Shown here one piece after another: positions 22,575 to 26,066 of a stretch of DNA of 32,030 nucleotides. The DNA is from a virus, in IMG/VR virus record IMGVR_UViG_3300027728_000054, positions 1 through 32,030 of that record; one strand, written 5' to 3'. The stretch's first letter is position 1. The number at the start of each line of letters is the position of its first letter. The notes under the pieces are model-generated. The model was not told where the DNA came from. It did no database searches and saw only the letters and a program-made list of their open reading frames with translations. The translations under genes were made by a program, and so were the position numbers.

Positions 22575-23141
22575 TTAAAATTTTTTTCCTTTTTTGATAT
22601 TTTCTGCAGCCCACAAAGGTTGCAGATTAGTATAATGACACAACTTCAAAAGCTCTTCAACATTCTTGGCTGAGGATAAGGGGATAATGTGGTCAACATG
22701 CCATTCATTTCTTTTTTTCCAATTCATCCCCTCTGTAAATTTGCTTTCTAAAAAGTTTTTTAAAAAACTAGGAGAACAACCAATAATATCAAATGTCTTG
22801 TTTGTTTTTTTTATTTCAAATACATTCATATATTTCCATAATCTGCACCTCATTCTATTAGTCAAAACAAAGATTGGGTCAATTTTTCTTCTTTCTTTCC
22901 TCTGTTCTTGTTTTCTTTTTTTGTAATTTTGCCGATACTGCTTTCTTTTATCAGGATTTTCTGTATAAAATTTTTTCAATCTTTCACCAAGCCACTTAGG
23001 ATTTTTGGTTCTAAGAATTTTTTCAGATTTTTTTGTACATGTTTTACATTCAGGTCTAAAACCATCTTTTTTTGTACTGTCTTTTCGAAAATCAGAAGAA
23101 TTCAGATGAAGGCCACATCTACAACAAACTTTAGTTTCCAT
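22575..23141 (-). CDS. Free-standing HNH endonuclease with N-terminal zinc motif (188 aa)
   Basis: Residues 6-35 hold a zinc-ribbon-like C-x2-C ... C-x2-C (C6, C9, C32, C35). A very basic middle (KKRKQEQRKERRK) follows, then an HNH core: WHVDHIIPLS (H148, D150, H151), TNLQPLW (N172) and ENIKKG (N181). Such solitary HNH proteins in T4-like phages often act as homing endonucleases that cut gene-poor alleles nearby. Neighbouring genes uvsX and the 5' nuclease are intact, so it is free-standing, not intronic. Its start overlaps the end of the 50-residue ribbon-helix-helix-like gene by 11 bases. Shares the N-terminal Cys arrangement with the HNH protein at 24622-25137, although the nuclease cores differ. 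Confidence 0.88.
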   Translation of the reverse strand: METKVCCRCGLHLNSSDFRKDSTKKDGFRPECKTCTKKSEKILRTKNPKWLGERLKKFYTENPDKRKQYRQNYKKRKQEQRKERRKIDPIFVLTNRMRCRLWKYMNVFEIKKTNKTFDIIGCSPSFLKNFLESKFTEGMNWKKRNEWHVDHIIPLSSAKNVEELLKLCHYTNLQPLWAAENIKKGKKF

Positions 23142-23283
23142 TGTTAATATATTCTTTTAATAATTTATTAACAAGGGAAGAAAGATTTATCGATTTATCT
23201 TTAAAATATTGTGGTAGTTTGGGGTCTATTGAGACACCAATCTTAACTTTCTTTTCAATATCTTCTTTTTTCTTTCTTCCCAT
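23131..23283 (-). CDS. Small ribbon-helix-helix-like DNA-binding protein (50 aa)
   Basis: A short reading frame beginning MGRKKKEDIEKKVKIGVSID and ending YINNGN. The order is a basic front, one beta strand (KKVKIGVSID), a short helix (LPQYFKDKS), the turn INLS and a second helix (SLVNKLLKEYI). This is the ribbon-helix-helix pattern of Arc/MetJ-type repressors and of antitoxins. Its stop lies inside the HNH gene (11-base overlap), so the two are probably translated together. A TATTTAT element ends 4 bases before the ATG. It might regulate the HNH gene or its own transcript. No toxin partner is visible, so I do not call an antitoxin. Fold assignment is by eye. Confidence 0.65.
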   Translation of the reverse strand: MGRKKKEDIEKKVKIGVSIDPKLPQYFKDKSINLSSLVNKLLKEYINNGN

Positions 23284-23287
23284 ATTA

Positions 23288-23294
23288 ATAAATA
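23288..23294 (-). promoter_or_regulatory. TATTTAT element before the ribbon-helix-helix gene
   Basis: The sense strand reads AGATATTTATTAAT directly before the ATG. The spacing of 4 bases is too close for a usual promoter with a leader, so this copy could be chance or an operator rather than a start signal. Confidence 0.2.
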
Positions 23295-23334
23295 TCTACT
23301 AATATAATAAAAGTAGAATAATTACAACTTTTTT

Positions 23335-24621: not shown

Positions 24622-25137
24622 TTAAATAAATTCCAAATGTTTATTTTTAGTATCAAGAATAACCCCACCTATTGTTGAGTAAATCATTTTTTCTTTATTG
24701 TAAATCAAATATCTATGAATTAAATTATGTTCTTTAATGGAAAGTTTTATAACGTCTAGCCAATCCACTTGATTATAAGACCAATGGTGTAAATGAAAAC
24801 CTTGTTCTTTTGTTAAAAAAATTTCTGTATATTTTGCCGCTAGATATTTTTCAGGAAACTTTTGTCGATATCTTTTCATAATATTTTTCTTTTTTTCAGT
24901 AGAAGGTTTGTTTTTATCCTTATACCCAAGCCTATGATATTTTTCGCGATTTCTTTCCCTCTCTTTTTCAATCCATTCAGGATTTTTTTTTAATTCCTTA
25001 ATTCTTCGTGAAGTATCTTTGATTGTACATTTTTTACACTTATTTAAATGACCATCAGGCATTTTCTTATGAACATAAAATTCTTGTATTGGTAAAATAT
25101 TACAACACTTAAAACACTTTTTTTCAGTAATTCCCAT
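24622..25137 (-). CDS. Second HNH-type endonuclease with N-terminal zinc motif (171 aa)
   Basis: Residues 8-37 carry C-x2-C-C ... C-x2-C (C8, C11, C12, C34, C37) with F-Y ... DGHLNKCKKC between, the same plan as in the other HNH protein of the window. A Lys/Arg-rich middle follows. The likely nuclease core is GFHLHHWSYN (H115, H117, H118) with EHNLIHRYL (H137, N138, H141), a histidine-dense variant of the HNH motif. It lies between intact gp32-like and helical/uvsX genes, so it is free-standing. A 17-bp perfect inverted repeat ends one base before its ATG and could hide the ribosome site. Likely a homing endonuclease; loss of activity cannot be excluded. Confidence 0.8.
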   Translation of the reverse strand: MGITEKKCFKCCNILPIQEFYVHKKMPDGHLNKCKKCTIKDTSRRIKELKKNPEWIEKERERNREKYHRLGYKDKNKPSTEKKKNIMKRYRQKFPEKYLAAKYTEIFLTKEQGFHLHHWSYNQVDWLDVIKLSIKEHNLIHRYLIYNKEKMIYSTIGGVILDTKNKHLEFI

Positions 25138-25138
25138 A

Positions 25139-25180
25139 TAACTTTGTCATGTATTATTTTATAAATACATGACAAAGTTA
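25139..25180 (-). repeat. 17-bp perfect inverted repeat abutting the HNH start codon
   Basis: Arms TAACTTTGTCATGTATT and AATACATGACAAAGTTA pair perfectly around an 8-base loop (TATAAAAT in sense). The 3' arm ends one base before the ATG at 25137, so in a read-through transcript from gp32 it would fold over the ribosome-loading region. There is no T-tract, so it is not a normal terminator. A TATTTAT element (25161-25167) overlaps the 5' arm and loop. Confidence 0.85.
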
Positions 25181-25181
25181 A

Positions 25182-25199
25182 AATGGTTATTTTACCATT
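25182..25199 (-). terminator. Weak hairpin directly after the gp32 stop
   Basis: AATGGT, a 6-base loop AAAATA, then ACCATT form a 6-bp stem starting right after the TAG, followed by TTAAC. The stem is AT-rich and the T-tract short, so attenuation or 3'-end protection is as likely as termination. Confidence 0.25.
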
Positions 25200-26066
25200 C
25201 TAAAATGGCAAATCTTCATCGGGTGTTGAATCAGCCTGAGGGTCCGTGTACGTTTTGTTTGCTGTGGTACTTGTCATACCACCGCCGTATGATTCAGTGG
25301 AAGCCTCTTCATTACCATAGACGTATCCACCTTTATCACTATCCCAACGTGGAACTTCACCACGAGCGATTGACTCAAGATATTCAACAGGTTTCTTAGA
25401 ATAAACATCTAACCATGTCATCTCATTTTCAACCCACCCTTTCAATACTTTCATATCTTCATGAATAGGTGCTGCGTCTTCATACATAATAGTTGATACG
25501 GTCGTGTATGCCGCTCCTTTAGGAGTCTTTTGCTTACTCAATTCAATGATAAGGTCACGTCCTTTTTCAGGGTCGGTGATATCACCTTTGTTTCTCCAAA
25601 TAGGGATGATTTTATCAAGAATACCTTCATTCTTGTAGTTATGTTTGAATCTCCAAAACTTCACACCGTCTTCTTCGTGGTCACGGTCAATAACCTTTAC
25701 AATATAGAATTTACGTGATTTGTACTGTTTAGCCAATTCTTTGTCAGATTCTTTACCTGTTGACATAAGTTCTTCATATACTTCGTTCAATGGTGAACGC
25801 TCGTTATCATTTTTTCCTGGGTCGTAAAATTTTTGCCATTTTCCACCTACTTGGATTTCATGGTACCAAGCCTCTTTAAAAGGTGAACTACCATCTATGG
25901 TTGGGAGGATTCGGATACGTCGTGTTCCTGAGTTTGATTTCTCATCAAGAATAAGAGCGAAGTATTTCTTCATTCTTTCTTCTGATGACATACGGTTTTC
26001 TCCGCTTGAGCTGTTTTTCTGTGATTGTTCGTACTGTGCAAGTACTGCGTCTAATGATGTTGTCAT
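25200..26066 (-). CDS. gp32: gp32-like single-stranded DNA-binding protein (288 aa)
   Basis: Binds single-stranded DNA at forks and recombination sites and would work with UvsX and the helicase. Residues about 45-140 follow the T4 gp32 core: RRIRILPTIDGSSPFKEAW, then a Lys/Tyr-rich stretch (KQYKSRKFYIVKVIDRD) and EEDGVKFWRFKHNY. Unlike T4 gp32, the protein has no Cys at all, so the zinc-binding subdomain is missing. The C-terminal 45 residues are Gly/Ser/Thr-rich and end DEDLPF, very like the DDDIPF tip of bacterial SSB. The start MTTSLDAVLAQYEQ lies 65 bases after a strong terminator, so this is probably the first gene of its transcription unit. Length is near T4 gp32 (301). Family call good, based on pattern and neighbours. 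Confidence 0.82.
   Translation of the reverse strand: MTTSLDAVLAQYEQSQKNSSSGENRMSSEERMKKYFALILDEKSNSGTRRIRILPTIDGSSPFKEAWYHEIQVGGKWQKFYDPGKNDNERSPLNEVYEELMSTGKESDKELAKQYKSRKFYIVKVIDRDHEEDGVKFWRFKHNYKNEGILDKIIPIWRNKGDITDPEKGRDLIIELSKQKTPKGAAYTTVSTIMYEDAAPIHEDMKVLKGWVENEMTWLDVYSKKPVEYLESIARGEVPRWDSDKGGYVYGNEEASTESYGGGMTSTTANKTYTDPQADSTPDEDLPF

Follow-up and report, generated by a model that had tools for sequence, protein, structure and literature searches.

What is the role of a long inverted repeat located immediately upstream of the start codon of a phage HNH gene? The repeat was observed in a 32,030-nucleotide virus fragment (the window), all the main genes of which are on the minus strand. 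The presence among them of baseplate, ribonucleotide reductase, replicative helicase, exonuclease, UvsX-like recombinase and gp32-type single-strand DNA binding protein (SSB) genes indicates that the fragment derives from a T4-like phage. The relatives, rather than the window itself, suggest a host in Bacteroidota. In the T-even phages, an RNA structure hides the start of I-TevI, I-TevII, I-TevIII, segB and Aeh1 mobE on early/middle read-through transcripts, and a late promoter is located inside (PMC2988022). The sequence-only reading of the window had proposed that a switch of the I-TevI type might exist here.

The repeat and the HNH gene

The repeat lies between two genes:

25200..26066, minus strand: gp32-type (T4) SSB gene; the product has the tail DEDLPF, and no late box is present upstream
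24622..25137, minus strand: putative HNH endonuclease gene encoding 171 aa, with the Zn module CFKC..DGHLNKCKKC at the N terminus and the core HHWSYN..H..H
25139..25180, minus strand: perfect 17-bp inverted repeat with an 8-nt loop (RNA hairpin), one base separating its end from the HNH start codon
25164..25180, minus strand: 5′ arm TAACTTTGTCATGTATT, found in read-through transcripts only, if the inferred late start holds
25139..25155, minus strand: 3′ arm AATACATGACAAAGTTA, adjoining the HNH start codon

The two arms were complementary at 17/17 positions, exactly as first described from the sequence. With loops of 3–60 considered, this was the longest perfect inverted repeat of the window. 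The longest perfect repeat in 200 dinucleotide shuffles of the whole window measured 9–15 bp, none exceeding 15, in agreement with the earlier statement that a chance match of this length was very unlikely. The fold of the coding strand around the repeat reached −31.5 kcal/mol (z = −6.2). On this strand, TATTTATAAAAT extends over the last part of the 5′ arm and the loop. Immediately past the SSB stop there is a further, weaker hairpin, AATGGTAAAATAACCATT; the ACCAT of this hairpin is paired with the AUGG of the HNH start in another predicted fold. The window copy of the HNH start region shows no clear Shine-Dalgarno sequence, and Rfam gave no match above cut-offs for the repeat region. The sequence-only reading had pointed out that a repeat scattered at many genome sites would be an insertion scar. 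A single copy was found in the record and it tracked the HNH gene, so that neither a scar nor a repeat family was retained.

The HNH protein weakly matched the profiles of the phage HNH/endonuclease VII-like families phrog_2340 and phrog_2633, and a set of Cys/His residues was invariant across its family. The structure model was confident (pLDDT 96) and partly matched Hpy99I, a beta-beta-alpha-Me enzyme, as well as phage HNH proteins. The window protein shares with phrog_2340, phrog_2633 and Hpy99I the Zn-binding cysteines and the HNH core; unlike them, it had no match in Pfam, no solved structure related to it by sequence was found, and the structural overlap was partial. The matches were of HNH type only, with no GIY-YIG domain. 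The designation as a probable endonuclease is based on the conserved Cys/His pattern and the partial HNH matches. A nonsense change at position 24624 removes the last 9 aa present in near-identical relatives (L083/L084), and this copy may be decaying.

A second HNH/endonuclease VII-like gene (22575-23300 region) is preceded by an ORF of about 51 aa resembling ribbon-helix-helix proteins, with a late box approximately 11 nt before the ATG of this ORF. The gene seems to be absent in L084 and is therefore probably another insert. The same design was looked for at this gene (22575-23141) and was not counted, the hairpin being imperfect and inside the small upstream ORF, with the late box further off.

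The late-promoter-type box

The promoter-type box reported in the 5′ arm and loop was recovered independently as a motif upstream of late genes:

25160..25167, minus strand: TATTTATA, late-promoter-type box where the 5′ arm meets the loop, 30 nt upstream of the HNH ATG

Words were counted, without prior choice, in the non-coding DNA immediately preceding the genes of the window and of three related contigs. The most over-represented words in this phage clade were GTATTTAT and TATTTATA. The latter occurred 44 times upstream of genes for 5.1 expected, compared to 8 for 4.3 expected for its reverse complement, indicating a single orientation. Boxes preceded 71 of the 321 genes; 169 of the 321 have a non-coding stretch of 15 nt or more in front of them. 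Genes for the tail sheath, the portal, the head-tail adaptor and the baseplate wedge were among the 71, which did not include the SSB, helicase, reductase and UvsX genes of the window. Over whole contigs, the box pattern TATTTATAA stood out less clearly from its reversed control than in the upstream-region test. Because of the upstream over-representation and the position before late genes, TATTTATA is very probably the late promoter of the clade, the counterpart of TATAAATA in T4. In the window and in L214-L232, the distances from box to ATG clustered at 11-13 and 21-25 nt. With the T4 spacing, the 11-13 nt class would give leaderless late mRNAs.

At the HNH loci of T4-like phages, the box occupied either the 5′ arm or the loop, 18-38 nt upstream of the ATG. 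The promoter-to-start spacing of T4 would place the start of the late HNH transcript near 25154 in the window, and this transcript would consequently lack the 5′ arm, as judged by the position of the motif. The mean predicted unpaired probability around the HNH start was 0.22 on the read-through transcript and 0.58 on the late transcript, a larger rise than for other late genes (0.42 and 0.62, respectively); in some members (L085, L131) the predicted late transcript was still partly paired. In the other phages of the HNH family, a TANNTTTG-type box was found in 26/85 loci. Outside the T4-like set, complementarity between the box and the start was −12.1 kcal/mol versus −8.3 for swapped pairs (p = 3e-5), many single cases being weak.

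Pairing of the arms in related loci

Relatives of the HNH gene were gathered from viral contigs and bacterial genomes. With a stem score of at least 14 and a 3′ arm at the HNH start as criterion, a stem covered the start in 18/19 loci of T4-like phages, several of these loci being related, so that the count overstates their independence. Among the other genes of the same phage group, 2/317 showed such a stem, and both were terminator-like. No significant hairpin was present in L130, and many members outside the T4-like phages have weak ones. The arm sequences were often unrelated between T4-like loci and the pairing was retained: the energy of the own 5′/3′ arms ranged from −15 to −26 kcal/mol (mean −19.2), compared to a mean of −5.4 kcal/mol when arms were swapped, the few well-pairing swaps being between close relatives. 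Between L085 and the window, one double change replaced a C-G by a T-A pair in the stem. The conserved pairing with compensatory changes that had been put forward as a check of the switch was thus observed. Both the predicted folds and the swap control argue for a stable RNA structure over the start region on read-through transcripts. It is very improbable that the hairpin arose by chance, or has no function, as could happen in an AT-rich intergenic region, since no shuffle reached 17 bp and matched arms are conserved at nearly all related loci.

The same comparisons bear on a role at the DNA level, for example as a site bound by a protein dimer or as a by-product of replication. The arms are perfect as DNA, and the palindromic SSB-end sites described below suggest that a dimer binds nearby. 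L003 differs from the window by two point changes over 6.9 kb, one of them at position 24624, and by an inverted loop (25156-25163), which puts the box on the other strand and removes it from the coding strand. The inversion, either a natural on/off variant or a replication slip, reveals a DNA-level process at the repeat. A protein site would, however, be expected to keep its sequence, whereas the arms differ completely between members with their pairing kept, and some stems contain G-U pairs. We therefore regard an action as DNA as quite unlikely, slightly more so than the possibility that the repeat ends or processes the SSB message, which is itself improbable. As a terminator, a 3′-stabilising stem or an RNase III site separating the SSB mRNA from the HNH mRNA, the repeat would be suitably located between the two genes in phages missing the usual GC-rich SSB terminator, and stems of 17-23 bp could be RNase III substrates. 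The stem nevertheless lacks a following U-run, the terminator scan lists none at the repeat, and the combination of GC-rich stem and U-run that defines an intrinsic terminator was not found there. The distance from stem to SSB stop varied among members and the position relative to the HNH start was constant. In L087 and L118 the 3′ arm even lies within the first HNH codons, indicating that the constraint on the stem follows the HNH start and not the SSB stop. The late box within the 5′ arm or loop of the T4-like members also argues against a function in the SSB message.

Insertion site, movement and proposed control of the HNH gene

When HNH clusters were defined at 60% identity, 59/63 were located directly behind a gene whose product ends with an acidic stretch followed by PF (the DDxPF tip). 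Such a tail preceded 5/471 other ORFs of the same loci. The preceding genes encode, among others, gp32-type SSB, OB-fold SSB (PF00436), another SSB family, SF2 helicases, primase-helicase and Cas4-like nuclease. The same SSB-HNH gene order was found in isolated coliphages, and in a Salmonella phage a family member is present behind a primase/helicase. In the enterobacterial phages L237, L238 and L239, the same C-terminal end, DDDxPFA..GLQY...IYxL, is found on SSB and on a primase/helicase immediately preceding the HNH gene, as though the C-terminal codons had come with the element.

In the window, the SSB end and its copies are arranged as follows:

25200..25208, minus strand: SSB-end codons CCATTTTAG (P-F-stop), the presumed homing site; the stop is TAG
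25193..25199, minus strand: inverted copy AATGGTA immediately past the SSB stop, forming with the SSB end the palindrome CCATTTTAGAATGG
25178..25186, minus strand: CCATTTTAA, a further copy of the SSB-end sequence, located between the genes; it resembles an operator and, in one of the predicted folds, is paired with the start codon
24566..25228, minus strand: approximate mobile block, running from the final ~29 nt of SSB through the operator-like sites, the hairpin and the HNH gene to the 3′ tail

Of the 42 testable clusters, 30 carried a second SSB-end copy between the SSB stop and the HNH start, for 2.6 expected; in 22 clusters this interval contained an inverted copy, for 1.1 expected. The second copy of the window is located 10 bp upstream of the late box and does not overlap it. 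In the T4-like members, the SSB end tends towards the palindrome CCATTTTAGAATGG. The SSB stop was TAG in 12/20 T4-like HNH-bearing members compared to 1/78 HNH-less relatives (TAA in 77/78). In a DNA-only search with the palindrome CCATTTTAGAATGGTA, 23 of the 32 tail-coding matches were directly followed by an HNH family member. L242, L265, L270 and L295 carry an SSB-tail gene followed by this palindrome and no HNH gene; these loci may have lost the element or may be alleles that resist it.

The movement of the element could be followed in L084. Compared to the window, the final ~29 nt of SSB, the copies of its end, the hairpin and the HNH gene were 90-100% identical per 50-nt step (mostly 98-100%), whereas the flanks were approximately 80% identical. 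The downstream flank of L084 was 98.7% identical to that of the HNH-less L008, in which a GC-rich terminator follows SSB in place of the element; this normal terminator is gone in the element-bearing phages. The alignments indicate that the hairpin and the HNH gene moved as one block, with co-conversion of the SSB end. The comparison of L084, L008 and the window, along with the conserved insertion context, corresponds to a gene moving into element-free alleles at one site.

We consider it likely, on comparative grounds, that the repeat belongs to the control region of a free-standing HNH homing endonuclease, whose start would be buried on read-through mRNA and freed by an inner late promoter. 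In this model, the element inserts at the 3′ end of DDxPF-ending genes, here the gp32-type SSB gene. Its arrival would replace the SSB terminator, and early SSB transcripts would therefore read into the HNH gene. On these transcripts the repeat would fold and bury the HNH start region, so that little endonuclease would be made. Late in infection, the TATTTATA promoter at the arm/loop junction would start a short transcript near 25154, holding the 3′ arm only and leaving the start codon free. Through the nearby SSB-end copies, the endonuclease may bind at its own promoter and repress it. The hairpin, the conservation of matched arms, the late-gene box, the DDxPF linkage, the extra site copies and the joint transfer are seen by sequence comparison and fit this scheme, from which we infer read-through, silencing, late start, cleavage and autorepression. 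The inverted loop of L003, the lack of a stem in L130, the weak hairpins outside the T4-like phages, the residual pairing in L085 and L131 and the shortened HNH product of the window count against it. The I-TevI-like switch proposed initially is well supported on computational grounds, by the conserved stem, the box, the joint movement of gene and hairpin and the predicted change in start pairing.

As in I-TevI, I-TevII, I-TevIII, segB and Aeh1 mobE, a hairpin would cover the start and a late-type promoter would lie inside, here by sequence comparison. The extra SSB-end copy upstream of the HNH gene is a candidate site resembling the upstream operator-like copy of the homing site proven for I-TevI (PMC2988022). 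The window differs from the T-even set by another endonuclease lineage and host gene, by the box TATTTATA instead of TATAAATA of T4, and by a hairpin conserved over many diverged members. SegG of T4, a free-standing GIY-YIG homing endonuclease encoded between genes 59 and 32, has gene 32 as its target (PMC2988022, Table 1). The window enzyme is similarly free-standing and associated with a gp32-type SSB gene; unlike SegG, it is of HNH type and located after the SSB stop, and its family follows the DDxPF codons into unrelated genes. We found no description of SSB-linked HNH homing, or of homing to the SSB tip, in the open-access literature.

We lean, with some reserve, towards a large HNH homing family recognising the codons of the convergent acidic DDxPF tip of replication proteins. 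One element type would then invade genes for SSBs of several families, for helicases, for a primase-helicase and for a nuclease, in phages and bacteria that are unrelated to one another, and its control module (target-mimic operator, local-type promoter and start-burying hairpin) would be rebuilt for each host promoter. If true, such targeting of the codons for a functional peptide tip that unrelated replication genes have in common would explain how a homing gene avoids relying on just one host gene. The results suggest that control of the I-TevI style, with a hidden start, an inner late promoter and a target-like operator, has arisen once more in another endonuclease family; instead of a few T4 cases, they offer matched-arm evidence that is strong and spans the family.
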